From: Amphirosellinia nigrospora
Lineage: Eukaryota > Ascomycota > Sordariomycetes > Xylariales > Xylariaceae
Length of the DNA: 64,000 bases
Direction of reading: 5' to 3'
Assembly: GCA_004123355.1 (NCBI GenBank)
Contig: SCHM01000002.1
Location: forward strand, 9,459,569-9,523,568
The notes under the pieces were generated by a model that had not been told where the DNA came from, did not search any database, and saw nothing but the letters and a program-made list of their open reading frames with translations. Below, one piece after another: positions 1,804 to 64,000 of the stretch (its first letter is position 1; every line of letters starts with the position of its first letter). Both the position numbers and the translations under genes were made by a program.

Positions 1804-3175
1804 CTATGCTCCCAAGTGTGCAAACTCCTTGTTAAATGCTCGCCCGATAACCATGCGGCGGATTTCTGAAGTCCCTGCGCCTATCTCGTACAACTTGGCA
1901 CATTCGGGGTGTCAGTTCTCGGCTATGTTGCAACACATAAAATTTGGTTGCAAGGGAAAACTCACTCTCTCAGTATCCTAGAGGCGGGCATCTCCTCGAC
2001 GTAACCCATACCACCAAGGAGCTGAATGCAGTCGAGGGCGCACTCGGTCGCCCGCTCGGCGGCGTACAAGATCGCGCCTGCGCAGTCCTGAGTCCGGATG
2101 GTGCCCTCCTCATCGACGTCTTGGCCGTTGCGTATGTATACGCCCGCGCAGCCTGTAGCTTGGTGTACATGTCTGCCAGCTTGCCCTGGACTAATTGATT
2201 ATGCGCAATGGGGCTTCCGAACTGCTTTCGCTGGTGAGTGAAGGGTAGCGCGACGTCCAAAGAGGCCTGCATCAGACCCAAGGGTCCCGCGCTGAGGACG
2301 AGACGCTCGAGGTCCAGCCCCTCCATTAGTACGCGCACACCACCGTCAATAGTACCGAGGACCTGTTCGTCGGGTACAAAGACGGACTCGAAGACGAGCT
2401 CGCCAGTGTTACTGCCGCGCATACCCATTTTGTCGAGCTTGCGTGCGCAGCTGAAGCCTTCAGTCTTCGTGTCAACGATAAAGGCGGTGATGCCCTTGGA
2501 CCCGCATCAGGCCGTGTCTTAGCGTAAACAACAACAACGTCGGCATCAGGGCCGTTGGTAATCCACATCTTGGTGCCGTTGAGCACGTAGCCACCATCGA
2601 CCTTCTTTGCGCTCGTGCGCATGCTGACAACGTCGCTCCCGGACCCGGACTCAGACATGGCGAGTGCGCCGATCTTTGTGCCCGCGATTAAGCCAGGAGG
2701 AACTTTTCCTTCTGAGCGGGCGAGCCGTTGAGCTGTAGCTGATTGACGCATAACTGAGAATGGCAGCATAGCTCAGCGCGATGCTACCGCTGGCTCGCGA
2801 CAGCTCCTCCATGACGACGCAATGCGCCTGGTATCCCATGGCCAGCCCGCCGACGTCCTCGTCGCCGTCATGCCTAGGAACCCAGCGTCACCTAGCTTCG
2901 GCCACATCTCGTTTGGAAAGCATTGCTCTTGTCCGTATGTGATGCAACCTCCTCGGTGATCTCGCGGCGGACGAATTCCTGTACGCGCTCGCGCAGCTCG
3001 CGAGGTCAGCAGTCGAAGGGGCTTCGAAGCCTTGCGGGCTTCTTTGAGGCGTACGCTCGTCTCTGCTGGATAACTGCGGGCGCGAATGTGGAGGGGCAAT
3101 TAGTGCTGCCCGGGTAGATGATGCTGCTGCGGGACGCAAACGGCCCAGCGCTCTAACCGCCTTAAAACTCGACAT
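1804..3175 (-). CDS. ivdA: Isovaleryl-CoA dehydrogenase, mitochondrial (several one-base frameshifts)
   Basis: This flavoprotein oxidises isovaleryl-CoA to 3-methylcrotonyl-CoA in mitochondrial leucine breakdown and passes electrons to ETF. Family blocks are unmistakable once frames are joined: [74 protein letters not shown], and [20 protein letters not shown] with the Glu that acts as catalytic base in the human enzyme. The C-terminus reads [20 protein letters not shown]. The start at 3175 gives an Arg/Ala-rich mitochondrial presequence. An intron of about 70 nt lies near 1894-1965 (donor GTGAGT, branch CTGAC), but its 3' splice site is not clean. The frame is broken about eight times, near 2118, 2500, 2697, 2761, 2863, 2915, 3002 and 3035; in most cases one base is missing from a run (for example TT to T, CCC to CC). 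I take these as sequencing errors. It diverges from the carboxylase beta-subunit gene. Confidence 0.93.
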
Positions 3176-3490
3176 TTTTAAAATTCAATTGGGAACTTGG
3201 TATGTACGAGAGGTTAAGGGCAAGTGAAGAGCAGAAGCAAAGAAAAAGCAATGGCAATGGGACTGGGAGATCTGACGTTGGCAGGTGCCTCGGTCGGGAG
3301 CTTGTGCTGTTAGAGACGGCTTCCATCGGCTACAAACGGGCCGCGCAGGCGATCGCCCACCATTCCCTTGAGGAATGCACGATCTAGAGCTTTACCTCTA
3401 CCTAAAGCCCTCGCCTTCCCCAAATTCCCATGTGCTTCTTGCTCTATGTAATCCATTTCTTAAACAAGAGTGGCTTTATATACAACGCCA
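3176..3490. promoter_or_regulatory. Shared promoter of the divergent ivdA-mccB pair
   Basis: About 315 bases separate the two start codons, so both leucine-catabolic genes must be driven from this interval. It holds AT-rich stretches near 3177-3190 and a CT-rich part at about 3380-3460 in front of the carboxylase start, as is usual for fungal leaders. The divergent layout allows joint induction by leucine or isovalerate, which is known for these genes in Aspergillus. I cannot point to a defined operator by eye. Confidence 0.6.
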
Positions 3491-5395
3491 ATGTCGCTAT
3501 CAAGATCCTCGCGTGACCTCCTGGGTCTCCCCCGCCAATTGAGCAGACAATGCTCTAGACAGACTGCCGTCCCCCGCCGAGTGCCTTCGCGTCCCTCGGC
3601 AGCGCCTGCTCGAACCGTTGCCTCGTATACGGCGCCGCACCAGGCGAACGCCATCTCCGTGTTACAGACAAATGTAGACCCGAGCTCGGATGAGTTCCGC
3701 GAGAACGAGCGGCTTATGGCGAGGCCATGGCCCGGCTGGATAAGCTGACACGAGCCGCTCAGCAGGGTGGTTCAGCCAAAGCCAGGGAGAAGCACATAGC
3801 GCGAAAGAAGATGCTCCCACGCGATCGCGTCACGGCACTGATAGATCCTGGCACCACCTTCATGGAGCTATCACCCCTCGCCGGCCATGAGCTGTACCCC
3901 GAGGCTGACGTTCCAGCCGGCCATCATCACCGGTGTCGGTGTGGTTGAGGGCGTGACCTGCGTCATCGTCGCCAACGACAGCACAGTCAAGGGCGGCACA
4001 TATTATCCTATCACGGTCAAGAAGCATTTGAGGGCGCAGGAGGTGGCCAAAGAGAACAATCTCCCGTAGTTCACTCCTCCGGCCGGGCTAGGCGCCCTTG
4101 CGTAGGGCTCGCACTAACCGCGCATCGCCTGTAGATGCATATACTTGGTAGATTCCGGAGGCGCCAACCTCCCACACCAATCCGACGTCTTCCCCGACCG
4201 CGAACACTTCGGCCGCATCTTTTACAACCAGGCGAGGATGAGCTCGCAGGGTATCCCTCAAGTCTCGGTGGTCATGGGTCTATGTACCGCGGGCGGCGCC
4301 TATGTGCCGGCTATGAGCGATGAGAATATCATCGTGGAAAAACAGGGCCATATCTTCTTGGCAGGTCCCCCGCTAGTTAAGGCAGCCACGGGAGAAGAGG
4401 TATCCGCTGAAGCGCTGGGTGGCGGTACGTTGCACACTTCCGTGTCTGGTGTCTCGGACTATCTCGCCGTCGACGATGCACACGCCCTCGTCCTCGCACG
4501 GCGGTGCATCAGCAACCTAAACTGGCCCCAAAAGACGACACCGCCTGCTGAGACGTATGCCCCCCCTTTACCCTGAGTCTGAGCTTCTCGGCATAGCTTC
4601 GACAAATCTGCGGAAGCCCCTGGCAATTCATGAGGTTATTGCGCGCATTGTTGACGGCTCCCACTTCGCCGAATTCAAACGGGACTTCGGTACCACTCTC
4701 GTAACAGGTTTTGCCCAAATCTACGGGCATAAGGTGGCATAGTGGCGAACAATGGAATTCTATTCGGTTCATCTGCACAAAAAGGAGCTCACTTTATTGA
4801 GCTCTGTGCGCAGCGCGGTATACCCCTGGTCTTCTTGCAGAACATCAGCGGCTTTATGGTTGGTGCTCAGGCTGAGCGTGAAGGCATTGCCAAACACGGT
4901 GCTAAGCTCGTCACGGCCGTCGCATGCGCCGATGTGCCAAAATTTACGGTCGGTAGGCGGTTCGTATGGCGCCGGCAACTACGGTATGTGCGGGCGAGCA
5001 TACTCGCCCCGCTTCCTGTGGATGTGGCCCAATGCACGCATCGGTGTCATGGGCAGCGAGCAGCTTGCCAATGTCATGCAGACTGTAGGTCAGAAGGCCG
5101 ACCCTGAACTCCGCAATCGGATCGATCGTGAGAGTGATGTTGTCTTTTCTTCTGCGAGGTTATGGTAAGTTGACACCGTGTCATGGTAATTCCCTACGGT
5201 TCCCCTATGATTACGTGCTTGCCAGCAGGTATTCCCAGTTCTTTGTTGTCTCTGGCTAATGCTGTGCGTCTAGGATGATGGTGTAATTCCACCCGAGCAC
5301 ACACGGCGGTATCTTGGTCTGGGACTTCGTGCCGCAATGGGCGGCAAGAACGAGATTAAACCCGGTAGCACTAAGTTCGCGTCTTTAGAATGTAA
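3491..5395 (+). CDS. mccB: 3-methylcrotonyl-CoA carboxylase beta subunit, mitochondrial (frameshifts)
   Basis: This is the carboxyltransferase subunit that, with the biotin-carrying alpha subunit, turns 3-methylcrotonyl-CoA into 3-methylglutaconyl-CoA, the step after isovaleryl-CoA dehydrogenase. Blocks seen: [94 protein letters not shown], and [20 protein letters not shown]. The ATG at 3491 opens a Ser/Arg-rich mitochondrial presequence. Intron 1 is 4066-4134 (perfect ACTAAC branch). Intron 2 is about 5165-5273. The frame shifts near 3720, 3920, 4563 (a C-run), 4736, 4949, 5274 and 5388. After the last correction the protein ends KFGVFRM, as in the family, at the TAA of 5393-5395. Most shifts fit a lost base in a run; those at 3920, 4563 and 4949 could also be one extra base. 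The alpha-subunit gene is not in this window. Confidence 0.93.
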
Positions 5396-5965
5396 AGCTT
5401 GTTTAGGACTGTCAATCTCATAGCATGGTTGGTGTATAGCGGATTGGGTGCTAGGCGTCTATAGTGTAGTCATTCATTCAAAATAGGAGAACCAAAAAAC
5501 ACGAACATATAAGCCAAGGCACAAGGCAGCGAACTTTCATGACGCATGGCCGGGCGTGATGCTTCCTGTCTGTTTCGCCGTCGCCTAGGCTCGCCTCTGT
5601 ACGCATGAAGCTTGGCTAAATCTTGCCTCTGATCACAATTTACACCGAAACTAGACGCTTACCCCCAACGTATAACCTAGGACAAGAAAACGGCATGCTG
5701 GTCTTCTCTTGCGAGCGTACTCGGACATGAGAGCCATCGCTAAGACGCCCTTTGAGCATTCGCCGACGCAGACGACGTTAAAGCCCGTGCTAAAGCCCGT
5801 GCCATGACCGACGGCGACAGATGATTCGCTCGCTTTTTCTTCTTCTTCATCTTCGCCTCACTCTCCCAACAAACAAACAAACCAACCATCTCTTCGCCTT
5901 GGGTCGCGAACGCAAGGCAACGGTATGCCTCTTTTTTGACTGACACATGCGAGTAATCTTAATAC

Positions 5966-5993
5966 TGTGTGTGTGTGTGTGTGAGAGAGAGAG
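5966..5993. repeat. TG/GA microsatellite
   Basis: About nine TG units run directly into five GA units. This is a simple compound microsatellite in the spacer after the carboxylase gene. Confidence 0.9.
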
Positions 5994-6190
5994 GTCTGGA
6001 TGGCGGAACCTCCCGGCCGGGCCGGCTGGCCTGTTTGCTTGCTTGCATGAGGAAAGCCACGTTCATATGTTGGTCGTCGGGTCTCGTGAGCCCTTTATGT
6101 TGTCGCATTTGCCACTTGGCGGACGGCGAGAGGTGCGGTGCGGTGCGGTGGCTTATGCCGGCCGAGCCGTCGTTTGCCTTGATGAGGCAA

Positions 6191-6228
6191 GATGAGATGA
6201 GATGAGACGAGTCGAGACGAGACGAGAA
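6191..6228. repeat. GATGA/GACGA pentamer array
   Basis: A short imperfect tandem array of GATGA units that drifts to GACGA and GTCGA. It lies in a spacer with no gene and has no known role. Confidence 0.85.
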
Positions 6229-7150
6229 CGCCGATGCTAACCACTTGGGTGAGAATATTGGATAGTGGGTGAAGGTATCAGTGAAGGAAGGAGATGGGAG
6301 GAATGTCCGTTAGGGTTGGGGATGTTTGTTCTTCAAGGTAGGTAGGATCGGCCATGTTGTGCGCCCATGATTGGATTATTGGATTATCTAAGTTGGCTTT
6401 TTTTTTTTATGTATCATTGTCCCCTTTTTTTTTTGACCGAGGTAATATCTATTCTCGGGATTAGAAGGTCGATTGCCGATATCTTGTATATCGACGGTAC
6501 GGGACCGTGGACCTAAGTAGGTAGGCAGGCAGGCATCATGGTTGCCTTATTCAATTGCTCTGCCCTGAGCTGAAAGGACATGTGAAATGAGATAATTATA
6601 CATGTTATCTTCGGTCATCAGAAAATCTAATAGCCTCTGCAAGAGGCATTGAGGATGGGGCTTGGATGACATCAAGTTTTGCAGGGTTGTTTCTCCTGCT
6701 TTCGACTATGGGTAGAAATAGCCTAAGTTGTCAGCTCATCTTCCTGATTACTTAAACAAGCCGATCTACATCGAATCTCTCTATAGCTATCGTGAGAAAG
6801 AAAAAAAAAGAGGAACTGTGTATATGGAAATGTATAGACGCTAGTTAGTAATCATCTATATCAAACCCCATACAAACAAAATGGTCCCCTATCTCAGCCT
6901 GAGTATGGTTGCCGAGACCCCTCCCACCTGACATGATATTTCTCAACCAAGCTTGACAGAATCCAGGGGCACATATGCAGGTCATCACATGCGCCGGCCA
7001 GTTCTTTCGAATGCCCGCATTACGCGTGGGAAGTTTTCTTGTCTTTGTAGTAAGTAAGTATTGAGGTACGAACCGAGTACCAAGCAAGTACCTTACTTTC
7101 GCAAGCACACACTTTCTCGGTATGCAGCGGCTGAATGAGGCATCCGGAAC

Positions 7151-7701
7151 AAAAAAAAAAAAAAAACGGCGGCTTGGTCACATGAGCGATCGCAAAGCTG
7201 CGGCCGATCCCGTTTCTCCAAAAAATAAAATCAAAAAATCAACCCCCACAAAGAAACTGACTTGCTGAACCGTGGGGTTGATAACCATGGCCCCCTGTTG
7301 GGCGCAGCAAGAACCTAGAGCCAGCTTGGCAGGAGTCGCAGTAACAAGCCATCGATATCATGAATTTTAGGTGCCCGGTTCACCAATTACGTGGAGGCAT
7401 CTTATAAACGTGCTCTGTATCCCACGCTCTGCGGATTCTATTACTCATCCGTCTTTCTTTTTTTTTTTTTTTTTTTGGTTTTTTTTGCCAGAATTGAATA
7501 GAATTAAAATCGATTCTGTGCCGTCTCAATTGTGCATGTACCTGCGCCGTAACTATCTAGGTTAGGTGATGATCGTCGAATATCGGAGCTTTTTTTTTTT
7601 GGTCGATAAGCTCAAAGAAACGTTGGTTAGGTATGACGTATATCTTATTACTGTAGTCTTCAAGATCTACTGTACCCCTAGTAGCTTTTTTTTTTTTTTT
7701 T
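7151..7701. repeat. Cluster of long A and T homopolymers
   Basis: An A16 run (7151-7166) is followed by T19 (7458-7476), T11 (7590-7600) and T16 (7686-7701), with further T-runs near 6400-6430. Such runs are common in fungal spacers. Their true lengths are uncertain given the homopolymer errors inferred elsewhere in this window. Confidence 0.85.
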
Positions 7702-10005: not shown

Positions 10006-10575
10006 TCAGCGTCTGGGCTTTTTCTCTGCCTGTCGGTCAAGAAGTATTGTCAACTGACTTTTAGAACGGCCTAGAGGGATTGTAGCGGTGTTACTAGGTT
10101 GAGTGGGAGTCATTTGTCGACCAATTCCAGAACTTTGCGATGCTTCGGGGGTCTCGTTACTACTAATCTCCCCAGATTGCATCATTGAGGAACCTTGTGA
10201 CGAAGTGTTCTCCGCGAATTTAGAAATTGTGCCCTGGCCGATTACTGAGGTATCAACCTTGGCCATAGTAAGGCTAGAAGGCGTGACAAAAGTCTGGCTT
10301 GTCTCTCGTGAAATGGTGCGCATCGAGCTAATATCAGAGGCGGACCTGGTCATGGATGGTGAGGATTCAGATTGTGGTTGTTTCTTTATGTCCTTCTTTT
10401 GAAGAGCGGTGGGTGAAGATGCTTTCGAGCGGTTTTCAGTAGTGCTACCAGCTTTCCCCGATCGACCTAGATTTTTCCCCTTAGCTTTGACGTTGTCTTG
10501 TTCAGCTGGAAGACCTTCGTTCTGGAGCTGACTGTTGCGCACAGTTGTTTGCTTCGATGTTGTTGTTGCTGCTGC

Positions 10576-10637
<62 letters not shown>

Positions 10638-11650
10638 TTCCAACGCGCGGCTGTGTCATCGGGCGTTTCCCAGCAGCCTTCGCACTCAACCCGTATTCCC
10701 ATCGCCCCTTTTTGCAATGATTTGTTGCTGTTCTGGTTGCTCCAGTATTGTTGGCACTGAGCTTTGTGAACCATCATACTTCGACCCAAGCGATGACTCT
10801 CCATCTTTGGATATAGTCTCAGAAGCCCCAGCAGACGATTGCGAGCTAGATCTTCGAGGCATTCCAGGCCTTCGTTTGGACGATGTTGATGCCACGAATG
10901 TTGGTGTCTTTTTTTTGGGTTTATGAGAGCTTCCTTTTCTCCTTTCTTCATTAGTAATTAAACCTCCGGAACCCCCCGGCACTCTGGAACTAGCACCGGA
11001 CGCAGAAGCCGTCGTAGGGGTTGCGGTTCCGCCCCGCTTGGAATTATCCTCATCAATCCCAGATCCTGGTGGCGATACAAATCGAGCCGTTGGTCGTGGT
11101 CCCGACGCCGAAGGTCCTCTAGGCTCTTCAGAATGGGATGCGGGGCTTTGGTAGATACCGTAGGCTTGCTTTTTGGCTTTGTCGCAGGTGTTGAAGAGGC
11201 ACCTTGGACACCCTCCGATTTGGAAGCTGAAGATTTAGGGGAAGGCTACGATTATCTTATTAGCGAGCCTTTACTACGAGTCTGGATCGAACTTACGGGC
11301 TCATATCGATTTTGCGGGCCCCGTAGTTTGACAAAGGATGTTTCCTCGGAAATATCTTTGAACAGGCGAGCGATGACTCTGCCGGAGAGGTAACGACGAT
11401 CACCGCCGAGTACTCGCGTCCAGAAGTTCTCTAGTCGCCTTGCGGTAGGATCATATAACTCCCGAGAAGTCGTAGAGAAAACTGTACTGCGAATTAGACA
11501 GCGCAATTAAGAGGATGAGAAGGATAGTCTACCGTGACAAGCCCTTAGAATTCGCTCGACCGGTACGACATCGTACTTGGCTATCTCCTCGTACACACTG
11601 TTTCGATTCAGCACAATCCCCTTGGGCAAAATTGTCTGCTCCTGTGCCAT
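10006..11650 (-). CDS. Conserved fungal protein of unknown function with trinucleotide-repeat linker
   Basis: I do not recognise a function. The protein has a conserved N-terminal block, ELYDPTARRLENFWTRVLGG followed by DRRYLSGRVIARLFKDIS, then a basic, Ser/Pro-rich disordered tail with an ILKKPRGPSASGPRPTARF-like stretch, which I associate with a fungal-only family. The ATG at 11650 opens exon 1 (to 11533). Intron 1 is 11482-11532 and intron 2 is 11227-11296 (donor GTAAGT), though a one-base phase mismatch at intron 2 needs one more base in exon 2. Two further one-base losses are needed: near 11128 (AA to A) and at the T5/A5 run 10709-10713. The final 227 codons are open and end EKKPRR at 10006. 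Inside them the array at 10558-10639 is read as Thr/Ala repeats, but the neighbouring frame reads polyglutamine. Low complexity and charge suggest a nuclear protein; that is inference. Confidence 0.72.
10558..10639. repeat. TGTTGTTGCTGC-type trinucleotide array inside a coding region
   Basis: About 27 trinucleotides (GTT/GCT on the plus strand, AAC/AGC or CAA/CAG on the coding strand) form a nearly pure array. Depending on frame it encodes Thr/Ala, Asn/Ser or Gln repeats. It sits in the last long exon of the minus-strand gene at 10006-11650. Confidence 0.9.
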
Positions 11651-12730: not shown

Positions 12731-12847
12731 TAAGTACACTAAGTACAGCTCAGCACACACCACAACACCAGGGATGTGTGAGGCGAGGCATGGAGGTACG
12801 CACGCAAGCCGCAGGTCCGTCAGTCACGACCCAGCAAGGCCAAGTCT

Positions 12848-19497: not shown

Positions 19498-20963
19498 TTA
19501 GAATGAGATGCCAGCCCCTTCGCATACTGTGCCATTATTGAACCACTGGGCCGTGGGGATGACTTCGCTCGCAACCCATCTTGCTGTTGTGGCGTGCGTT
19601 GAACCAAACCCGAATGGCCTATGAGTTCTGTCTTTTCTCTCAGTTTCATTGAGGCTCAAATCTTTCAGGCCTTGGTCTGCTTCGTCAACATCTTTCGCTG
19701 GACCGGGGCGTGTTTCGTCCTCCCATCTCTCACTCGCTCGACTCCAATAGGTCGTTCTCCCTCCGCCAATACTTGAAATACCACTAGCTGGTCTTGCAGA
19801 TACTCATCGATGGCTGCGGTATGGACTGCGGTCTTTCAAGCACTGGAGTCAGTAATTTCCGCTTATGGTTAAAATTGTACAACTTTATGACGCGCACCAG
19901 GAGTAGCAAGAGAAGGATATACCTGCGCTGTTTGTGGCTCAGGCATACCGAAATGGGGGATGAAGGGCTCCAGTAACTAACCTGCTCCCACAAGCGTTTT
20001 GTGACCGTCTTGGCTATCTCTTTGGCGATGGTTGTTACCTGCTTCTTCTTCCAACTCCGGTCGTAGAGGAAGTCCCGCCCCCATCGTAACCCAGACACCG
20101 AATGGGCGACTGCAAGTACGTACATTCGCGCATCGTGGCCACTATCCTCGTTAACGACGAAATTAATCTCAGCCTCTGGGAACTCGGCACCGAGGTATTC
20201 AACCATTGCGTTTTCCATTGGCTCACGCATAGCATACGGGACCAGGATGCTAACATCAATCCGCTTCATCTTGAGATCATCCGACTGGCTTTTACCATTC
20301 CAAGGTTTCAACAGTTTCAAGGTCTGACCGAGAGATATCGGCTGGAATCTGAGCCAAATGGTGCCATGAAATAACGGTCCGGTAGTCCAAGCTCGCTTCC
20401 TCAGCTGTCGCTCTACCACAATGCCGAATCTTTCCTCCAAGGTGGGTAATAAGACCTGGTCGAGATATTCATAAGATGGCGAGAAGGAGGCGTTTGTGCT
20501 TCCGTGGATCTCGAGCTCAATGGGGTCGCCACTCTCGTTACCAGAAAACAGAAGGTAGGGGAAAACGGCCTGAAGGATGAGTAGGGTGCTGGCGCCGCGG
20601 CTTTCTGGTGTGATGACGATCTTCCGGTCTTTCACTGCTGTCGGAGGCGCCGTAGGCCTGAACTCCAGCGTGCGACCTCCCACCACAAGCCCGCTCACCT
20701 CGGCCTGAGTAGCTTTGGCAAGCCATTCTATTGCCGATACGTGTTGCGATTTCAAGCCTGTGACGCTCACGTTCAGCCGCGTTTTCTCATCCGTTCGATT
20801 GTGTATATTTCTCACCTCCGCCTCGATCTCGATTGCCTCTCACATTGGTAATCCGCACTGGAGAAGACGTGACAGCAGCAAGTGCACAGGCGAGTCTCAC
20901 AAGCTGACCTCCACCCTCGCCAGTACAACCATCTAATATCAGCAACGGCTTGCGGGGCTTCAT
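19498..20963 (-). CDS. RNA 3'-terminal phosphate cyclase (RtcA type)
   Basis: This enzyme uses ATP to convert an RNA 3'-phosphate to a 2',3'-cyclic phosphate, in RNA repair and processing. Exon 1 (20963-20816) begins MKPRKPLLILDGCTGEGGGQ, the family's start with its Gly-rich loop. A 58-nt intron follows (20758-20815, donor GTGAGA, branch CTGAAC), and splicing restores VRGNRDRGGGLKSQHVSAIE. Exon 2 runs to about 19978. A second intron of about 165 nt leads to exon 3 (from about 19813) with DEYLQDQLVVFQ. One base is missing in the GGG/CCC run at 19759-19761. After it, the frame reads RPFGFGSTHATTARWVASE and ends at 19498. The His in STHATTA aligns with the nucleotidyl-acceptor His of human RTCA, which favours a catalytic cyclase over the inactive paralogue Rcl1 (inference). 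The exact junction of intron 2 is uncertain. Confidence 0.9.
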
Positions 20964-34242: not shown

Positions 34243-34245
<3 letters not shown>

Positions 34246-51177: not shown

Positions 51178-52990
51178 ATGGCCTCAAAGCGAACGGCAGA
51201 GGACGGAGCCGATTTGAAACCCCCTAAAAACAAACGTAATAAGACAGGTCGAACAGACCCGACGTCGGGTCAACGCGGCGCGTTTGGAGATTTGGGAAGT
51301 GGAACAACTGCGCCTGGAGACAGCGATCTAGATTGCGAAGATGACTCGGAAGCTCTGGCATATCTGAGATCTGTCAGGTAAGATATCTATCTCCGTTCTC
51401 CAAGTCAATATTCCAGTTTCGACCCCCGAAGCTAAACATACTTCCTCAGTACCGACGGATGAAGGCCATCTTTTAGCTGATATGGTGGGTACAGAACTCA
51501 GGCATCTACGATACCGCATGTGCTCGCCGCGAAGAAAGCAGGACCTCCCCTCCCTCCCCAAGCCTCCGAGGGAAACAGCGAAGATGGCAAGGGACAGCAT
51601 GCCGACCGAACTATATACGACGACGGTGTTGGCGATTTTCGTGGATACTACCAAGATGGCGCATATGTAGCATGTCCCGACGAGGAAGAAGGCGAGTTCT
51701 ATGAAGAAGATTACGAGGGGAACGAACAGGACGAGGCTGCATCGGAGAACAGCGACGACCCTGAGGCCTCGGAATCGGCCCGAGATCGGCCGCGTAATAG
51801 CAGCGCCGATGAGATCCGAGATGCTTACTTCACCTCGATCACCGGCCGGTACACCGAGCTTCGTAAACTACTCCAGGCCTACCCACCAGATAGCACCGTC
51901 GCCGCTCTGCCCGCAACGCATCCAACCGAGGTAGGCGAATGGAAGCGTGGGTCGATACCTTTCAGAAGTGGGAAGGCCGTCTTAGAGGGACGGACCCTCT
52001 CCCTGCACAGGTTGCTACCATGCACAAGGACAGTGTATTCCGCCTATTGCGCGTCCTCCTCGCATGTAAATTTCTTAGGAAGAAGACGGAACTACGGGAA
52101 CGTACTAGTCGCTGGCTCTGGGCGCTGCTCGCGCGGCTACCCGACAAAGGCGAGCTCGACTATATGGAGGTGGGATGGATTCGCGAGCTAGGGAAGAGAG
52201 CCGTACTTCTCATGGTATCACTAGCAGAACTTGAAGTGCTTAAGGAGCATTACGATGTCGCTGGCAGTAGCCCGGGACCAAGATGAATACGAAATCAGCG
52301 CTGATGTCGACGACTACTTCGAGGATAATCTAAGCCCAGATGGTCATATCGATGCCGTCGATGCGCCCACTCCGGAGGCCACGGAGGAGCGGACCGGAGA
52401 TATTACGAAACCCAGAACGTTGGCTACAAGCAATCACGCCCACCACTCTCCTCGCAGCTCCGCTAACGCAAACTATGAAACCAACAACTCTACTCGGCAT
52501 ATACCATGCACCGACGAGGCCTCGGACGTAGAGATGCAGCTGGACTCCGATATGGAAGACGGGGAAGTAGCAGACGAACTCCCTTCACCGCCACGTTCAG
52601 ATCCCATAGCTGACATCGAGACGGCGAAGGCGCGACTCTTGGCCCGGCTCAACGGTGACATGATTGATAACAGCCAAATTGAAGAGGATGACGCCTCCGC
52701 CCCGATAACGCCTGCCACCCCGCCTGCAACTGCCGCCGAGTCGGCTAAAGCTGAGAAAGGAGCGGCATGTACAGCAGCTACAAACGGAGCTGAACGAATG
52801 CAGGAAGTGGAAGGATATGAAATGGCCGAAAGTGAAGGAGACCCAGACCGTGAACGCTATCAGGAGCTGGATCGCACCCAGGTCAACGAACGTGCTACGC
52901 TCAACATGATTCTGACCGTAGCTGGCGAGTTCTACGGCAGCGGGATCTCCTCGAGTTTCGGAATCCTTCGGCGGCCTCCAGTTTGAGTAA
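51178..52990 (+). CDS. Gemin2/SIP1-family protein (frameshifts)
   Basis: Gemin2 binds SMN and helps load Sm proteins on snRNAs. Exon 1 (51178-51377) starts MASKRTAEDGADLKPPKNKR, basic and nuclear-like, and ends DSEALAYLRSVR. One intron of 117 nt (51378-51494) leads to ASTIPHVLAAKKAGPPLPP. Acidic stretches follow, then EIRDAYFTSITGRYTELRKL and the core TSRWLWALLARLPDKGELDY. The C-terminal helix ATLNMILTVAGEFY followed by QRDLLEF parallels LNLLICLVSRYFDQRDLAD of human Gemin2. One-base shifts are needed near 51948, 52265, 52937 (GGCCAG read as GGCAG) and 52966 (CCTTT read as CCTT). Correcting them ends the protein FGGLQFE at 52990; without the last corrections the frame ends at 52986. The region between the core and the last helix, rich in Asp/Glu/Ser, is longer than in animals, as in other filamentous fungi (inference). 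Confidence 0.78.
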
Positions 52991-53608: not shown

Positions 53609-54539
53609 TTAGGCATCATCCATGTCTACTTCCCACGTTTCTTGGTCTAAGAATTCGGCCTCCTCGAAATCGCTGTCGACCACCATCAAGTTTTCCTGTC
53701 CGCTACGAGGCATTGGCATGGGTGTGCCCGAGAACTTAGCTCGCAGCCTGCCCTTGCGCGGCACTGCCATGGCCCGGCCGTTGTTGTTTCGTAGATTGAG
53801 ATTGACGTCGTGGTTATGTCGCCATAGATTGAGTTGTCTAGGTATTTCGTCCTCGTCGTCCTCGACGAAGAAACGCTTCCGTGTGCCGGCCGGGGAGACA
53901 CCCGACGATCGTGACATGTCCGAGGCATTCGAATTGACGGAGTCTTGACTATTTGTCAACCCCGGCATCTCATCTATGCCTACGCCGCTGGCGCCGAAAT
54001 GAGGCTGATTGAAAGCGTTCGTGTGCAGACGAAATGTAGAAGGTATGGGCGGTTGTCCCCCGGCTGTGTATCTAAGCCACCGACTTTGTGAATGCCGCAG
54101 AAGGGGAGCAGCTCCCGCGGCGAGGAAAAGGCGTTTGCCCGTGATCGCTGGCCTTCGCCCATGATGGTTGCGGTATGACCCGTGTCACTCTCGTCCCACA
54201 ATGCGAAGGCGTTGTAATTCCTGTCTTGTATCCTTCAGGCACGGATTTACGTATGCGCATGCCCACCGAGAGTAAGTTTGCTTGTACCGATGTAGGAAGA
54301 TGTGATATGTTATCGGTGCGCTGTGTTGATGTTAAGGATAATAATGATGATGGTGATTGACTGATGTAGGTGCCGTTGGGAGAGGCGCTCGTTGTGGCGG
54401 AGGTGAAGAAGGAGGTAATCTGTCGTTGCGCAGGGTCGCTGGCTGCGCCGGCAAACTGTCGCTTCGTGCGAGGGCCGACATTGGTACTACAAGATGGATA
54501 TAAGTCGTCGAGGATGTGTTTCGGGGAGATTATAGTCAT
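53609..54539 (-). CDS. Ribonucleotide reductase inhibitor / Spd1-Dif1-like protein (frameshifts)
   Basis: Proteins of this fungal family (Spd1 in fission yeast, Dif1/Sml1/Hug1 in budding yeast) restrain ribonucleotide reductase or control where its small subunit resides. The assigned motifs are PRTKRQFAGAASDPAQRQIT followed by SFF, then LLSVGMRIRKSVPEGYKTG, and SPRELLPFCGIHKVGGLDTQ. The tail is acidic with RKRFFVEDDEDEIPRQL and ends WEVDMDDA at 53609. The start is uncertain. The ATG at 54539 (MTIISPKHILDDLYP) is used here, but one at 54641 or an upstream exon is possible. Two one-base losses are needed: at the GG/CC near 54220 and in the G5 run at 54057-54061, where six are expected. Corrected length is about 310 residues. 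Family assignment rests on remembered motif similarity, so it is probable, not certain. Confidence 0.65.
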
Positions 54540-56086
54540 GCGACTACCACCAAGCAATCGATGGTCGGCTACCCCAAATGTAACAGGGCTGTGTTGGATA
54601 TCCTTGGCGGGGGGGTGACGCAGATGGCTGCGGTTGAGCAAGTCTGGCGGGGAACGGCGCCAATCAATGCTACACTAGATGAATAAAACACACTGCCCCT
54701 GTAACGTACCACCAAGCATGCGATTCGATGTCCGAATGCAGGAGAACACTATCCCAGTCTGGAGGGTTGAGCCAATTGAGAACGAATGACGAAATGAGGG
54801 TGAAGTACGAAGGGGACAGAAGTGTTAGATGTCCATGCTCAATGGAGGCTAGAGACTGGGGACTGGTGAGACGAGAAAGTGGGGCGAGAAACCGAAATGG
54901 TTAAATTGGTTTTCCTCAGCAACGCGTCGCCTAGCGTGTTTTTACGCGTTGGATGTTAAAGCCGAGGCACCAGCGAGGCCATGACCTGTGGGCACCCTAA
55001 CCTACCTAGGATTAGTTAGAATGCTTATTTATCCAAATTATGCATAACTCGAGTGAAAGAGACCCACCTCAATGTTCCAGGAAGAGATTCTTATAATGGC
55101 CACTACATGTGCTCGGTTGAACATTTCAATTGAACATCCAGTTTACGTTGTTAGGTACCTAGGAGGTAGGTATATACAAAACCTTATAGTAGTTGAGGCA
55201 TACCTTAGGTATCTACTATAAACAGTATTAGACAACGATGCATTTGCATTAACTACAACACTGAACAATATGGGAGGTCGGATTTTAACACTGCGCATAT
55301 CCAATAGACGGAGGTAATAACTCGTCTATGTACATGTATCTCTATTGATGTTGAAGCATCCATGCTGATTTCTACTATCTACCGGCTCGGGCGGTTCTCT
55401 TGACAACAAGTAGACTTACGCTGGTGTACAGGCTGTCCTGGTTGCATACACCAATACAACATCGAGAGGTAGATAAGGCACAGGCAAACCATCCAGAACG
55501 AATGCTTACATATTTTGATACACACTTTGACAAAACAACGACACACACAAGACTGATATCGATCATGCTTACACAACACGGCACGAGAGGTTTGTCAGAA
55601 TATCCGTGGAACTCCGTGAATTTGCCTACAGTAGTGCAACTAACACAAGGACTACTGCACCTGGGTATAGCAATCCTCAATCGACGTTCCACGTCCTCAC
55701 ATCCCAGAGATCTGCCTACAATAGGCAACCTCCGAAGAATGCTCATATGGAAAGCCATTTCCAGCTATCCACCCATGCGGCGCTACCACCAGCTCGATGT
55801 AGATGGTCTCATGTTACACAAAAGAGAAGACCAGTTGCAGAAAAAAGACGATGCAAGATATCAGGACCCCAAACGCCCCTTTTATATTGGAGTACTTTTG
55901 GTATCCGTCGTCTATCTGCAATGACGTAGATGTGGATCGTCAGAAGTCGAGAAGTGCGTGTATTCGGAAGGTTGATGCCCAATTTTCTATGCGCCCATGC
56001 CACCGAGAGAAGCTTTGCAGATATCCGAACTGTACCATCAAGTCGTGACCAATGCCTAATAACGAAAATAGAACAACATGATGCCT
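54540..56086. other. 1.5 kb spacer, nothing recognised
   Basis: This should contain the promoter of the minus-strand inhibitor gene on the left and the 3' UTR of eS27 on the right. A 174-codon plus-strand frame (55400-55924) is the longest here. It overlaps similar-length frames in two other frames and on the other strand and matches no family, so I do not call it. Confidence 0.45.
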
Positions 56087-56656
56087 CTACTTTCTGCGGA
56101 AAGAGCAACCTTCGGTTAATCTGGCCTTACCACCGGTAGGTTGGCATAGGACGGTGGTGCAACCTTGGCAGATGACGACGGTCTGGGCATGCGAGAACAC
56201 GGTGGTGATGGTAAAGCAACCCGGGCACTTGACATCCATGAAGAAAGACCGAGGGGCGGGCACAAGGGTCTGGTCATTGTGTGAGCTTATGAGTAGGATT
56301 GAACGGTGACATCTCGAGGCATACCTTCAGCTTGTGCTTCTTGGCCTCAGCAGCCGGGGTAGGTTGAGAAGATCAACGGCGAGAACCTAGACAAGAAAAC
56401 CGTCAGCACCTCAGTCTCTTACTTGAGAACCGAAAAAATTTCATCGACCCGCAACTTCTATCCCACTCGGACATCGAAATAGCATCGAGGCAAGATCGCG
56501 GTAGTCATGATTGCCGGGAAATATCATGGTCGAGGCCTTGAGCGTTGTCGGAGAGATCGGTCGCGATGTGTTGAACAATTGTTGTGATTGATTGTCGTGT
56601 CTCATCTCACCGAGTCGTCCGAGTCCGGGAGAAAAGGAATCGCTTTCACTTACCAT
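56087..56656 (-). CDS. RPS27: 40S ribosomal protein S27 (eS27)
   Basis: This small-subunit ribosomal protein carries a C4 zinc ribbon. The first exon is only the start codon: ATG at 56656-56654, followed directly by GTAAGT. Intron 1 is 267 nt (56387-56653). Exon 2 (56386-56325) encodes VLAVDLLN and, after one missing [14 protein letters not shown]. Intron 2 is 55 nt (56270-56324). Exon 3 (56269-56087) encodes [20 protein letters not shown], then [20 protein letters not shown] and ends SFRRK. The zinc ligands are the pairs CPGC and C-x-x-C in VICQGC plus VLCQ, as in the family. The lost base is in the CC/GG at 56362-56363, where CCC is expected. Since eS27 is essential, this is strong evidence of a sequencing error. 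It diverges from the Plp2 gene. Confidence 0.96.
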
Positions 56657-57275
56657 CTTGTCTGATTGTCAGGAAAATTATCTTGATCGTTCGATTGGCA
56701 AGCGTTGTGTTGGCTGGCAAAAATCTGGGTTGGATTGAGTGCAGATTTTGTGCTTGCAATAGATGGTTGGCAATGAGGGGGCTCGGTCTGTGTGCGAAGA
56801 AAGTTCCTCTTAGAAAGCAGCTTGCTAGCGAGGATTTTGGTTGGCGGATGTTGCCTACGGGATCCACTGAGGCAAGAACACTACAGACCCTTTGGTGTGA
56901 ACCAAATAGGCTTAGCGACAAGAGGGCTAGGGCTTCTCCATCCACTTTTCGTGGGCAGAGCCGGGAAAGACAGTCATGCCAGCTGTCCTCCAATGCTGCC
57001 AGCTGGACAGCGGGGCTTAGGAATCCGGGTAGCTGGTTAAGCCCGGCCCACCAGGAGAGGGGTGTCTACGTCTTAGGTAATGAGGCAGGTACCTACAGGC
57101 AAGGGATGTATTCACGTACGCAAGCATTGCGACGCACCCTACATGAAGGCAGCAACATTATTTCTTTCGAGGTTGATAAAAGCTATCGCGACTCTCTCTA
57201 CAGACTCCTCTATTCCTCCTCCCTGCCCACCCATAAATCAAGATTGCTCTTATAAATATTTAACCTCGACCAAAC
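56657..57275. promoter_or_regulatory. Divergent promoter between eS27 and Plp2 genes
   Basis: The two start codons face away from each other across 619 bases. The interval has CT-rich leader sequence before the Plp2 start (57190-57240, CTCTCTCTAC and TCCTCCTCCC tracts) and TTGTC/TGGCAA blocks on the eS27 side. A frame reading through this region is judged non-coding because it overlaps the Plp2 start in a different frame. Confidence 0.6.
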
Positions 57276-58102
57276 ATGGCTGCTCAACAGACCAAAGAAT
57301 CGCTGTTCCTATCGATGACCCCAACGCCGACACGGAATGGTGCGATATTAAGCCCCTAATTAAATGTGTCAGTGTTAACATCCAACTCGTAGGAATGACA
57401 TCCTCCGGAAGCATGGCGTCATTCCGAGAAGCCACCTTCCCCTACCCCCATGATCGAGGAAGCGATACTTGAGGGTCGTCGAATAGCGCACGAGAATAGA
57501 TTAGAGGGGAAAGAGCTTGACGAGCTCGATGCGTTAGAAGATGACGAGGACGAGACATTCCTGGAGCAGTATCGGCAGAAACGTATGCAGGAGCTGAACA
57601 ATCTCACTAAAAAGTCAATACACGGCTCTGTGTACCCGATATCAAAGCCCGACTATGCCCGGGAGGTTACAGAAGCCTCAAACAATGGCCCCGTGTTTGT
57701 CAATCTCACATCCGCGTTGGGAACTAACATTGAGTCGAGAGTGCTCTCGGAACTCTGGCGCCAGGCAGCGAAGGAATATGGCGACGTCAAGTTTTGTGAA
57801 ATCAGAGCAGACAAGGCGATCGAGAATTACCCTGACCGCAACTGCCCCACTATTCTTGTGTATAAAATGGCGACATCGTCAAACAGATTGTTACTCTCAT
57901 GACGATCGGCGGTGTGCGGACAAGTATGTTGCAGATCGACGACGTTCTTGTTGAGGTTGCCGTTGAAGCAAAGGATTTGAGAGTGATTAAAAGGAGGAGA
58001 GATGCAGAAGATGCTAAAGAGTATAAGACGACGGGCAGAGGCGTTAGGAACGGAAATATCAAGCATGCTACGGCAGATGACGATGACGATGATTGGGATT
58101 AA
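57276..58102 (+). CDS. PLP2: Phosducin-like protein Plp2 (frameshifts)
   Basis: Plp2 is an essential cofactor of the CCT chaperonin in folding actin and tubulin. The protein begins MAAQQTK and continues RIAVPIDDPNADTEWCDI, the family's N-terminus. An intron of about 50 nt lies in 57355-57412 with unresolved ends. Then come PPSPTPMIEEAILEGRRIAH, a charged helix of about 40 residues, and the thioredoxin-like domain GPVFVNLTSALGTNIESRVL ... VKFCEIRADKAIENYPDRNC. The C-terminus ends in a run of Asp and WD at 58102. One base is missing at each of three sites: the A3 run at 57294, the GG near 57425 (PEKPPSP region) and the A4 run at 57864-57867, where AAAAA restores YKNGDIVKQIVTL. Length after correction is about 265 residues, normal for the family. 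It has the eS27 gene upstream in divergent orientation. Confidence 0.92.
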
Positions 58103-58508
58103 TGTTTTGAATGGACTGAGACAGCCGGATACCAGACACAACCGGACCTTCGCCGTTCCGTTCCGTTCCGTTCCGTCCGTCCCGTCCCACGGGCCTAGTG
58201 TGAATCGTCAACACGACTCTGTGATTGCACGAGGCGTTGGTATTTATCACAGGAGGTACCAAACATTTAGAATTATCATTTGATCCCATACCCCAGGCTA
58301 CTCTGACGTTCACGATGCAGGCTAGGTCAGGAAAGTGGGGGTGCAAGTGCCTATGCTAGCGCGACGTCAGTGTGGGGATTCGCTTAGATAGCTTTCCGTC
58401 TACACGCGTCCTTCTGCTCCGGACTCGACCACGCGTGATTGAACCCAATCACGTCTGTTCTCCCCTCTCTTGAATGGCATTGTTGGTTCGCCAACACCAA
58501 TACAAGCC
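58103..58508. other. Tandem spacer between Plp2 and LRR genes
   Basis: Both neighbours are on the plus strand. The left part holds the Plp2 3' UTR with a GTTCC repeat at 58155; the right part, with CT-rich sequence near 58390-58490, should be the promoter of the leucine-rich-repeat gene. No gene is seen. Confidence 0.55.
58155..58188. repeat. GTTCC/GTCCC pentamer array
   Basis: About six tandem five-base units (GTTCC drifting to GTCCC) in the 3' flank of the Plp2 gene. Confidence 0.85.
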
Positions 58509-60401
58509 ATGGCCGAAGAGCCTACTCTCCCCAGCCTTCCAAGGTCTCATGGGACGCTCATACACAGACGTTCACTAACACGCGAAAACGTGGCGCCCCT
58601 GCACAACCTCTGTTCTCCAATTCCAGCGACCCCGCCATGTTTTCAAGCGATGATGATCCGTCCATCGACAACTATCTCAATGGACCTCACCGTAAGAAGC
58701 GTTATGTCGGCTCTTGGTTCCAGCAGATGCCGACATCGTCCGATTCGACATTCAGTGAAGCCGTAGGACCACAGCCAAAAAAAAGACATTTGAGCGCCAA
58801 TGGGATTCTGGTGTATGGATGGGGAGTGATGGATCGGTAGAGCTGGACGAGGATTTTGTCGTGGGAATGGAGCCGTCACCAGAGTCAAAGCTTCTTCAGT
58901 TACAAAACCCGCGGCCTGGCCCATCAACGGCTCCCGAGGAGCTGATCGTCCGCACCAGGATTGATGCGGCCATTGAAGAGGGCAACCCAGAGATCGACTT
59001 AACGTGCGTCAACGCCCAATCGCGGCTGCAGTTGGATTACCATATCTATTCAATGAAACACATCACAGATAAAAAACGGAAATTCAGATCCCTTGGTGTG
59101 GCTACAATTCCAAATGAGCACATCTCTCGTCTTGCCGAACTCGCTTTAATCCCTTCAGTTGATAAGGACGTGCCTTTCCAGCAAACCAATCCTGAAATTG
59201 GCCTTTACTTATCTAACAATAGACTTACACGTGCACCTGGTGCTTTATTCAGTATTGAACACCTAACATATCTCAGCCTACGAAACAACCAAATCTCAGA
59301 ACTGCCTCCCAGCATTGGCAACCTGCGAAACCTGCGGGAACTCAATCTTTCCCTCAATCGTCTTCGATATCTCCCGGGAGAGCTACTCACTCTTCTCCAG
59401 TATCCGTCAGTTTTATCATCATTACACATCCACCCCAACCCATTTTATCGGCCAGACACTAGTGGTATCATCAATGATGCAGAACTTGGAGACAATTTCA
59501 TTCCATCTAGCTACCTACTTCCATTTGAAGGGGAGAATGTAGCACATGTTTCACTAGATAACCGTACCACCGAAGCAATTCGTCAACAGAAAATGAATGT
59601 TGGGGCTTCCTTCGCATGGCAAGTTGTTCTTGTTGCACGATCGTTAGTGCAGTATAGTGATAGCCGGGGTTCCATCCTTTCTAAGTTTCACTTGCCCTGT
59701 GAAACAACTGTAGTTGATGTTCAACCAGGAGAGCCCGGGGAAAATCAACACATCGCTCTTCAAACTGAGAGCGTCTCTGTGCTCTCTGAGCCCCATCTTA
59801 CAGGCCGAACATCTGTTGTCTCTTCCAAGCCAAGCCGCGTGTTATCGCTTTTTGAATTAGCATTGAAGTCCGCATCCCGCGCTGCACGGACAGTAAGTCG
59901 TCTTTGGTGTCAATTTCTTCTCTATTTGGTCGCATTCAAAGTGCACGCTCTCCCTTCAAGGAAGAATAATGCCTGAGCCTTCCCATGCTTCTATAATCGT
60001 CACAAATTCACGTTTGAAGAGGCGATAACTAACTCCGAGTATTGCAGTGGGACCTGGCTTCCTACCTTCCACCACAAGCGCCTACAAGTTTGCAGCAAAG
60101 TATTGATCGAATCCAGGCGCAAAGCACTTTAAATGGCAACTTAGGCACCCTACCGTGTTCTATATGCGGGCGAAAAATCATAACACCATTGACGCAATGG
60201 ATCGAGTGGTGGGATATTACGAAACTACCACTTAGGGAAGGTATATCAATGCCGGAACCCTTGAGCATGGATCCGAATGAGAATGCCATACCATTCTTAA
60301 AACGCGGCTGTTCTTGGAATTGTGTTCCAGGCCCTATGAAAGTTGGACAATGCGCGCCTGGCACCATACAGCTACGTTCATCAAGTGGTCAAACTAGTTG
60401 A
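58509..60401 (+). CDS. Leucine-rich-repeat protein with C-terminal Cys-rich segment (two frameshifts)
   Basis: The ATG at 58509 opens MAEEPTLPSLPKVSWDAHTQ once one C is restored at 58539. Then come NGPHRKKRYVGSWFQQ, PKKRHLSANG and, after a missing G at 58802-58804, DSGVWMGSDGSVELDEDF. The LRR core has NPEIGLYLSNNRLTRAPGAL, LTYLSLRNNQISELPPSIGN and LRELNLSLNRLRYLPGELL, three typical 23-residue repeats, followed by HPNPFYRP. A 155-nt intron (59893-60047, donor GTAAGT, branch ACTAAC) leads to a last exon with LPCSICGRKIITPLTQWIEW and FLKRGCSWNCVPGPMKVGQC. Its cysteines could bind zinc (inference). LRR arcs usually bind proteins; the partner is unknown. The layout (basic N-terminal motif, GVWMGSDGS, LRRs, Cys-rich tail) matches a fungal-specific family I recall without a defined role. 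Confidence 0.85.
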
Positions 60402-61631
60402 GGACAAGGATGATGATTAGTACCCTGTTATACTGAAAGTTTAGTAACCAACCATTGCTACGACTGTACACTATTCATAAGATGTTAAATGAGCATCGAT
60501 GCACAATTGGAACATACTTCGTTACTGTTTACCCGGGGTAGTCAAAACCTTAGGGCAATGAACATGATAATACTTATATCCTTTCGCTCAACAACATTCC
60601 AGCTGTCCCAAGTCTCCAAAGTTCCCTTCTCGGTGGCCATTGCTACCGTCAGCATGAATGCCACTCGAGCTAGAATTTTCTAGCAAACAGGGTACCCCCT
60701 CTGGTTCATTCAATATACATTAGAGGCTAGTTCTCTGCGCACATTTTCTGATCAGTTGTAGTCACCGACGCTCTCGCACCTGGCCAAATACCGAATTACC
60801 TTAATAAGCGCCATAGTTGAACCACAAAGCCGGCTGGGTACAAATCGAAGTGTACTATATTGCCGGTAATTCCGGAAAGTCCTTTATCACGAGGACGGAA
60901 TTCCCGGCTACCTTGAGCACACCATCCACTTGTTGCCACTTTCAAAGTTCGATGGCGCCCAAAAACGTCTTATAATTCTGGCTTATGCACGGACTAACAT
61001 TGTGCAAGGAGAAAGTGTCCAATGTGATCAGGAATCTATGTCAGGTAAGGCTGGGCCCAGATGAGACATTTGCATGAAGGGTCATATGGACCTTTCGAAT
61101 TGTCGTCTACACCCGAAATATCATACCCCACATTCCGATGCTTCCGAAAACACCAAAGACATATTTGCTTCTTACATTACAGTTCACCTACAGCACTGGC
61201 GCTACTACCATGTCTAAGTAGGTACACTGCACTGGGTATTTCGATCCCACCGCCATTAATCAGATGTTTATTCGAGTGGGCCCTATTGGGCGTCTTTGAA
61301 ACCGACGTTCCCGTCGTTATTGGCCGAAATCTAAACAACGATGGCCGTGGAGTTCATAATAAAAGCTAAAGGTATGCCTCCGTGGGATGTAGGTTAACCT
61401 TTCCCGGAATTCCTATACATTGATTATGCGTATTTCTTAGTAGTGTCTGCCTCCAGTAAGCTTTGACATTCCAACGTCTTGTGCTTTCAATCTCTTCCCC
61501 ATCATAGCCTTATTTCTCAATCACCAGAACTCTGGCCACACGCCACCCTACTCAAATTTTGGGTCGAGATTGCTATCTTGAGTTTTGGTCTGTGGAATCA
61601 AAATAGGCATCGAGGGCCTACAACACATATT
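60402..61631. other. 1.2 kb spacer, nothing recognised
   Basis: This lies between two plus-strand genes. Short frames near 60.49 and 61.06 kb have no recognisable motif. The CT-rich stretch at 61.47-61.52 kb may be part of the leader of the next gene. Confidence 0.5.
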
Positions 61632-61994
61632 ATGTCTTCAACTACCAACCAATCTCCTTACAAGTCGACGCCAACGTCAACACAATTCGATACGTTTATT
61701 CGTTGGGCACGTTTAAGGAAGTATCGCATAGAGGTTACGTATGGCGTCTACGTTTTCACACCAATGGAGAAGTTGGTGTTCTGGACTCTATTCTGTTTCT
61801 TCTCCGTCGTCATCTCCACGGCCATGATACTCTACACGCATCGCAGCCTGGTGTTCCTCCTGCGCACCGCCACATCCTACGTCGACGGCCGTCAGTTCAG
61901 CGGGAGCCTGGCATCACACCTGCTAACTGCCAAGCGTGCAGCTACCGGGTTAGAACTGATGAACGGCACAGCAAAGAACTCGCAGGTCGCGTGA
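61632..61994 (+). CDS. Small subunit of serine palmitoyltransferase (ssSPT-like)
   Basis: Small SPT subunits bind the two catalytic subunits in the ER membrane and raise the rate of the first step of sphingolipid synthesis. From the ATG at 61632 the protein has a polar, Thr/Ser-rich N-terminus of about 20 residues and then FIRWARLRKYRIEVTYGVYV followed by FTPMEKLVFWTLF. This is the family pattern of an aromatic, basic W-x-R-x-K/R-Y-x-x-E-V-T stretch, then (L/T)-P-x-E-K-x-x-F. One membrane segment covers about residues 47-67. The last 35 residues are not conserved and may include an intron (GTCAGT near 61891, branch CTAAC, AAG near 61934). The frame as read ends at 61994 after 120 codons. A frame extending upstream to 61479 is rejected as start because the family begins near the aromatic motif. 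Confidence 0.72.
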   Translation: MSSTTNQSPYKSTPTSTQFDTFIRWARLRKYRIEVTYGVYVFTPMEKLVFWTLFCFFSVVISTAMILYTHRSLVFLLRTATSYVDGRQFSGSLASHLLTAKRAATGLELMNGTAKNSQVA

Positions 61995-63121
61995 GATACT
62001 ACAGAGTTTGTTCTGTGTTCTCCTCTCCTTTACAAATATGTATGCAAGGCAACAGCACATGAAGTTTGGTACCAAGTTTTCTATTAGCCGGGGACCGTGG
62101 TTGGATCGAAATGCACCATACCCACCGTCTAAGTACTTATCCACCAGAAGAGGGATTCCCGGGACCCTGGGTTACGAACAATGCGCAAGCTGATCGCGTG
62201 CTATTCCCTTGAAATATTTATCAGTGGGTCAATATTGAAAAATGACGACCACCGACTTGATGAATGGACGGTCAAGTAAAAAAACGAAATCGAAAAAAAA
62301 GGAAGCAAAAAGTGAGAGACGAGATGTTCCGTCAAGCCAAGCTTTTGGCCCCAAGAGCTGTCAACCCAATCCATGCATGACGGGAAAGGCTAAGCATTTG
62401 GCGTCGCGGGAATGGGGGGAACCCGCTGACCCTATTCTCGGTACCCCCTGCTATTTATGAGACCCACCTAACAACACCTGATTCTTATTATTGTATAAGT
62501 CGGCTGCGTTCCAATTTGGAGCCCTCTTATAGACCGATGAACCGGACTCGCGAGGGGGTTGGAAGTGGGTGAGGATGAAGTGTAAATGATAACCAAATCC
62601 TCGAGTGCGACGCTGCCATATCTAGAAAGACTCCGGGTTGACATATGTCAATGGACTGTGCCGTGGTCGATTCCCAAGATAACTCACCGGGCATCGGATG
62701 GTCGGACGGTCGCAATATGAGACAAATCTTCGGTACTAGGTGTGACTACGTTTGGTCGCTACATTTTCGAATTGCCGTGAGTACAAGGCAGTCAGTTAGT
62801 CCATTGCGATGAGTATCAGAGTTTGTTTTTAGTATTAGTTGATACCCTAAATAGGGAGTTATTCGATTTAGCCTCGACATTTTCAAATCCTTATCTCAAC
62901 ATTTAGATATTGAATTCAGACTGGATAGCACACAGTCACGTTGTCAAGTCATCTAACTATTGTGTTCGATATGTGATATAGTTCAAAATTGCCTTAGGCT
63001 GCTAAACTTGCTATTCAATCGCCTTGCCATTGAATACCTAGGTAACCAAACAATCAATATCAGATCGCCCTTATCATATAGGGCGTATTTGATGACCACA
63101 GAGCCAACTCGCTTATGTAAA
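61995..63121. other. 1.1 kb spacer, nothing recognised
   Basis: The ssSPT gene (plus) and the acyl-CoA synthetase gene (minus) converge here, so both 3' UTRs lie in it. A 72-codon Lys-rich frame at 62242 begins MTTTDLMNGRSSKKTKSKKK. It looks low-complexity and I do not call it. Confidence 0.5.
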
Positions 63122-64000
63122 TCATTTAGATGGCAATGAAATCAGCTCCTTGGCAAGTGACCTCAGCTTATACTTCTGGACCTTCCCGCTCGCGGTCTTG
63201 GGGTATTCGTCGATCCAAAAGACGTATTTGGGCGCGAGGTGGCCGGAGAGGTTCGTCTTCACCCAGTCCTGGACGTCCTGCTTCCCCAGCGTTTCTTCTC
63301 CTCCTCCCCCCTCCTTTGCCGCCCCTTCGTCGGAACGATGGCGGCGGCGGCGGCGGCGGCGGCGGCCTTGCCATCTTCCACAACCCCGTCCCCGCCCGTC
63401 GTCCGCACGCTCTTGTGCGGCACGACGAAAGCCGCGACGGCCTCGCCGTAGCGCTCGTCTGGCACGCCGACCACGCTGACGTCCTGCACGCCACTGAGCT
63501 GGAATAGACAGTTCTCGACCTCGAGGGGGTGATGTTCTCGCCGCCGCGGATGACTGCGAGATGAGTCAGTGATTTCGCCTTGGCGGATATTTCTCATAAG
63601 TTCTTCGGAGGTGTGGGAGAGAGGAGCGCTGAAGAAATGGCTCAGGCGAAAGCTCACGCAAGAGCCCGGGATTCATGAAATAGGATAGAAGAAGAAGAAG
63701 AAGAAGAAGGTGATGACGAGGGCTACTACTCACTGAGGTCCTTGATGCGGCCCGTGATCTCCACGTATCCGTCTTCGTCCATACGTGCCTCGTCACCGCT
63801 ATACATCCAGACCTTCCCGCCGTCACCCGGGTCCGCGATGCGGTCCTCGGCCGTGCGCGCCGGGTCTCCGTAATACCCCTGCATGACGAGGTATCCGCTC
63901 GCGGCGAGCTCGCCTCTCTCGCCGCGCGCAGGACCTCGTTGCGATCCGTCGGCGACACGATCTTGACGGCCGTGTGCGGCATGACGCGGCCGACGGAGCG
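63122..64000 (-). CDS. AMP-forming acyl-CoA synthetase, C-terminal part (partial, frameshifts)
   Basis: This enzyme activates a carboxylic acid through an acyl-AMP to a CoA thioester. Only the 3' part is inside the window; the N-terminal half is beyond 64000. Visible blocks are PHTAVKIVSPTDRN, ASGYLVMQGYYGDPARTAED, WMYSGDEARMDEDGYVEITG followed by RIKDL (motif A7/A8 region), and IRGGEN-HPLEVENCLFQLSG followed by VPDERYGEAVAAFVVP. The C-terminus has YVFWIDEYPKTASGKVQKYK, with the catalytic Lys of the PKTASGK motif, and ends SLPSK at 63122. An intron of about 180 nt (63554-63733) contains a GAA microsatellite. A poly-Ala and Glu/Gly-rich stretch of about 40-60 residues (63290-63400) interrupts the C-terminal domain. 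Frames shift near 63290-63320, 63531 and about 63905. Substrate cannot be told; the best likeness is to ACSF2-type medium-chain enzymes. Confidence 0.88.
63339..63366. repeat. (GGC)9 repeat encoding a poly-Ala tract
   Basis: Nine GGC units on the plus strand read as GCC, alanine, on the coding minus strand of the acyl-CoA synthetase gene. Confidence 0.9.
63687..63710. repeat. (GAA)8 microsatellite in an intron
   Basis: Eight GAA units (TTC on the coding strand) lie within the inferred intron of the acyl-CoA synthetase gene; the pyrimidine-rich form is on the transcribed strand's RNA. Confidence 0.85.

Follow-up and report, generated by a model that had tools for sequence, protein, structure and literature searches.

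Many conserved genes in this stretch of DNA from Amphirosellinia nigrospora have broken reading frames. These breaks are truly present in the letters of the assembly, and their source is almost certainly the under-polished consensus of a chromosome-scale ascomycete assembly, the genes themselves most likely being intact. The window, i.e., the whole stretch of 64,000 nucleotides that was analyzed, corresponds to C4:9459569-9523568 of a 48.1 Mb, 11-contig assembly, and gave no matches in either an Rfam scan or a tRNA scan (bacterial setting). An initial annotation, made from the letters of the window, had interpreted the breaks as errors in the consensus. Direct observations strengthen this interpretation: the shifts show a bias toward losses and an excess in homopolymers, with no true in-frame stop in the aligned codons; identity to distant homologues is high between shifts; no second copy was found for affected genes; the same fault is seen in CCT, HSP70, and tubulin genes, the broken clusters being spread over six contigs; and rDNA copies show one-base differences in run length. 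From these observations we infer both that long reads are the cause and that the sequence is intact in the living strain. Three points in the initial annotation need correction: the frame change in the RNA cyclase gene is an intron, the share of homopolymers is only moderate, and the fault extends throughout the genome, although the window is denser in shifts. Residual consensus errors, mainly one-base losses falling in homopolymers more often than by chance, would break reading frames throughout the genome.

Frameshifts in the genes of the window

The following genes of the window were considered.

1807..3175 (ends by eye), minus strand: ivdA, isovaleryl-CoA dehydrogenase; frameshift-aware alignment to 4kto_A, aligned part 1839-2996
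3491..5397 (ends by eye), plus strand: mccB, methylcrotonyl-CoA carboxylase beta chain; alignment to 3u9r_B, aligned part 3653-5340
19787..20963, minus strand: RNA 3'-terminal phosphate cyclase-like gene; alignment to 4o89_A, Pfam PF01137 on both pieces
51178..52986 (ends by eye), plus strand: Gemin2/SIP1 gene; SIP1 Pfam match in one frame, frames by eye
56090..56386, minus strand: ribosomal protein eS27, aligned part; alignment to Neurospora crassa eS27, 7r81_c2
57276..58102, plus strand: Plp2, phosducin-like; alignment to 7ylu_P, aligned part 57453-58010
63125..64000 (gene runs past the window), minus strand: acyl-CoA synthetase C-terminus; AMP-binding_C profile pieces, three frames by eye

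We wrote an aligner for DNA versus protein, in which introns (44-350 bases, running from GT or GC to AG) and frameshifts can both be opened at a cost, and used stretches of solved homologues as references. In five window genes, it placed 14 shifts in 1,268 aligned codons (six in ivdA, six in mccB, one in eS27, one in Plp2, and none in the RNA cyclase gene). Two CCT genes on C1, outside the window, contain four shifts in 1,015 codons (CCT7, 3/499; CCT6, 1/516), and the total for all seven aligned genes is 18 shifts in 2,283 codons, or ~2.6 per kilobase with the aligner. These shifts are above chance since none appeared in eight control runs, for which two intact homologous proteins were each back-translated at random four times, giving intron-free sequences. 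When shifts were forbidden, the score dropped in all six shifted genes, for example, from 1482 to 1088 in mccB and from 1001 to 707 in ivdA. Across all seven genes, the 2,283 aligned codons contain only one apparent in-frame stop, which is in ivdA and sits right at an intron donor. This stop is the last codon before the intron, and an alternative donor is possible a few bases earlier; one reference residue is skipped just after the same intron, and the junction is not fully settled. The nonsense decay between shifts that is expected of pseudogenes was not found in the 2,283 aligned codons.

Four of the genes named in the initial annotation are confirmed by alignment to be shifted. In ivdA, for which about eight shifts had been claimed, there are many, although slightly fewer than that in the aligned part, where we found six one-base losses in 357 codons. 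The six or seven claimed in mccB are borne out by six in 495 codons (three one-base losses, one two-base loss, and two one-base gains), alongside two introns. Both genes are otherwise well conserved, with 223/357 (ivdA) and 315/495 (mccB) aligned codons identical to the bacterial enzymes. No second ivdA orthologue was found in the genome, the next best match showing 33-35% identity to a 178-aa piece of ivdA; a second mccB orthologue was not found either, the genome search having turned up three carboxyltransferase loci, mccB included.

The single shift announced in eS27 was recovered as a one-base loss in 80 aligned codons, together with a 55-base intron, while a first exon further upstream was located by eye only. 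Although 77 of these 80 codons are identical to Neurospora crassa, the frame is shifted, and no second eS27 match was found in the genome. Of the three shifts claimed in Plp2, one is confirmed by alignment, as a one-base loss in the 185 codons covered by the yeast reference, and the other two are N-terminal frame changes seen by eye only in the open frames. No other phosducin Pfam match was found in the genome, but the sole match is weak (30.8 bits) and the absence is therefore weak too. The Gemin2 gene, credited with four shifts, is by eye spread over more than one frame, but its SIP1 Pfam match is confined to one; a SIP1 match elsewhere in the genome was not found. Thus, in none of eS27, Plp2, Gemin2, mccB, and ivdA did we find the function covered by another intact copy, as would be expected of pseudogenes.

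The RNA cyclase gene, in contrast, had been wrongly assigned a frameshift. It shows no shift across the 151 codons aligned, a 67-base GT-AG intron accounts for its frame change, and outside this intron it is one open frame. At least two shifts had been claimed in the acyl-CoA synthetase gene. By eye, the gene occupies three frames, and the AMP-binding_C profile is split over two of them, positions 1-38 in one and 42-76 in another; however, since ~120 bases lie between the two halves, an intron or insert is possible at this split. As for the gene at 10-11.6 kb, the one piece scanned gave no Pfam match. A triplet-repeat tract at 10544-10642 lies within open frames and accounts for all 34 of the further genome matches that were listed for the query.

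Direction and run context of the shifts

The 18 shifts consist of 14 one-base losses, two two-base losses, and two one-base gains. Losses therefore dominate (16/18, binomial p 0.0013), bearing in mind that an alignment does not readily distinguish a two-base loss from a one-base gain. We judged run context by simulating 1,500 random losses in these genes. Runs of at least two bases contain 10 of the 14 one-base losses (44% in the simulation), runs of at least three contain 6/14 (18%), and runs of at least four contain 4/14 (5%), the mean run length at one-base losses exceeding the simulation with a p of 0.0018. Counting against the consensus-error reading, the best-scoring placement of 4 of the 14 falls in no run. 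Errors in run length thus explain much of the pattern, though not all of it, and the description of the shifts as mostly homopolymer losses was half right, since losses they are, with runs favored but not exclusive.

Individual sites quoted in the initial annotation fared unevenly. The one at 56362 is consistent with a one-base loss that the aligner places at 56365. At 57864, a one-base loss was placed at that very position, but the best fit lengthens no run, a run of five coming within two score points. Near 54 kb, where a change had been put at 54057, two open frames (54072-54674 and 53609-54184) overlap, and a single frame change would consequently fall between 54072 and 54184. Long runs survive in the window (T19 and A16), which also counts against the consensus-error reading, as they would be missing if the platform shortened runs every time. 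Such runs are thus not simply collapsed in this assembly, which discourages a confident guess of the platform. In the stretch at 6400-7700, which has no called genes, A or T runs reach 19 bases.

Watson and Warr (2019) reportedly described residual indel errors in long-read-only assemblies. In nanopore-only assemblies of the fungus Drechmeria coniospora, passages of one report describe gene-breaking homopolymer errors, judged on 305 conserved genes, with over-long runs the commoner error (PMC7500977). The breaks seen here resemble those described in these passages, in that conserved fungal genes on chromosome-sized contigs are disrupted by one-base indels, often located in homopolymers; unlike what is described there, losses dominate. 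A passage of a second report names short indels at homopolymers as the predominant long-read error (PMC12007338).

Breaks elsewhere in the genome and in the rDNA array

Profile matches to CCT, carboxyltransferase, HSP70, and tubulin were grouped into 28 gene clusters, a break being a frame change between neighboring pieces separated by no more than 24 bases. Frame changes are present in 5/10 CCT, 3/3 carboxyltransferase (one of which is mccB), 5/10 HSP70, and 1/5 tubulin clusters. Outside the window, i.e., without mccB, 13 of 27 clusters are broken, with 16 changes in 9,796 profile positions (~0.5 per kilobase), and the broken clusters lie on C1, C4, C5, C6, C7, and C8. The fault is thus present genome-wide rather than restricted to a single locus or type of gene. 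By this method, 14 of the 27 outside clusters have no break, and nine of the 27 are single-piece matches, where no change can show. For 15 of the 16 outside breaks, no extra bases are left for an intron; the remaining one, in an HSP70 at C4:3.14 Mb, leaves 38 and is doubtful. The piece method is less sensitive than the aligner, finding two changes versus three in CCT7 and three versus six in mccB. With the aligner, the window is ~3x denser in shifts than the two CCT genes elsewhere (14/1,268 versus 4/1,015 codons, one-sided p 0.045). A carboxyltransferase at C1:10.296 Mb was considered as ACC1, but its best PDB matches are acyl- and propionyl-CoA carboxylase chains; this locus was therefore not used as an essential gene, although it is still in the cluster counts.

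Ribosomal DNA offers a test without proteins. C10, whose first bases already lie within an rDNA array of five or more units, carries five 18S copies in one array, one of them matched over 2,534/2,940 bases. At L053:437-3376, the 18S gene contains inserts, one of which is a group I intron by Rfam (1888-2290). The copies were compared without masked letters, the 18S stretch including inserts corresponding to alignment columns 1502-4444. Within this stretch, the five copies differ in five columns, all of which are one-base indels, with no substitutions. Four of these columns fall in G or C homopolymers five or six bases long, while the fifth, which counts against the consensus-error reading, is a gain of A in copy L058 outside any run. 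One run reads G5 in L055 and L058 but G6 in L056, L057, L059, and the Rfam consensus, so that run length in an untranslated conserved sequence differs both among copies and from the consensus of the family. Although the group I intron match nominally overlaps the G5/G6 site, this site is taken as exon because the alignment to the 18S model continues through it, up to 2215. Since concerted evolution keeps an rDNA array uniform, consensus error is the best explanation for copies that differ in run length where that length is conserved. Outside the 18S stretch there are more run-length indels, and in L055 a four-base indel as well as, in a repeat, a cluster of apparent substitutions, which may be real variation or misalignment. 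An 18S-region fragment, 95% identical, is found away from the array on another contig (C1:1494053-1494379).

The starts of four other contigs (C2, C3, C7, and C8; L048-L051) have an unusual composition, their first 4-6 kb being only ~8-18% G+C, although masked letters make the 9% of L048 an underestimate. This is far below the 41-59% measured in 2 kb steps along the window, and these starts are perhaps heavily RIP-mutated or AT-rich subtelomeric/centromeric DNA. Those of C2 and C3 were considered as a mitochondrial high-coverage control and rejected, as they are extremely AT-rich with nothing mitochondrial in ORF lists, Rfam, or tRNA scans.

Weighing the explanations

Could the broken genes be real pseudogenes in a decaying region, at least in the case of ivdA and mccB? 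Like pseudogenes, they have broken frames, and the two genes are denser in shifts than the other five aligned genes, with 12 in 852 codons versus 6 in 1,431 (p 0.014). This uneven density counts against the consensus-error reading, and leucine catabolism can be dispensable, which would permit decay; low local read depth would, however, also explain the denser shifts. Unlike pseudogenes, the affected genes show no true stops in aligned codons, including the 852 codons that bear 12 shifts, and remain strongly conserved between shifts, as seen in the identity of ivdA and mccB to bacterial enzymes. Neutral decay, moreover, yields many more substitutions than indels. The genes affected are conserved single-copy genes for which no intact second copy was found, and CCT genes, eS27, tubulin, and HSP70 show the same fault. 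Decay is thus very improbable, even for ivdA and mccB.

Still less credible are two explanations in which the assembled letters are correct. If the DNA truly carried the shifts and the cell bypassed them, through programmed frameshifting or nucleotide-inserting RNA editing, one would expect what is seen in the proteins, i.e., conserved genes shifted mostly in one direction and without stops. However, a like disagreement in run length occurs among the 18S rRNA array copies, where translation plays no part, and such bypass has a negligible probability; equally improbable is its boldest form, in which the organism carries the shifts in much of its nuclear gene set and restores the frames on the ribosome or in RNA. 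Unrecognized introns are the true explanation for the RNA cyclase gene and a possible one for part of the acyl-CoA synthetase gene. As a general account they are exceedingly unlikely, because the aligner was free to open introns of 44-350 bases, yet all six shifted genes still scored lower once shifts were forbidden, and because the breaks outside the window, with the exception of the HSP70 at C4:3.14 Mb, have no spare bases.

Errors in the consensus, which we favor over these explanations, occur at a rate high enough to disrupt many genes. Wrong results would follow if this assembly were used for calling genes, counting pseudogenes, tabulating presence and absence, or testing for selection. 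The outcome is therefore a warning about data quality and not biology.
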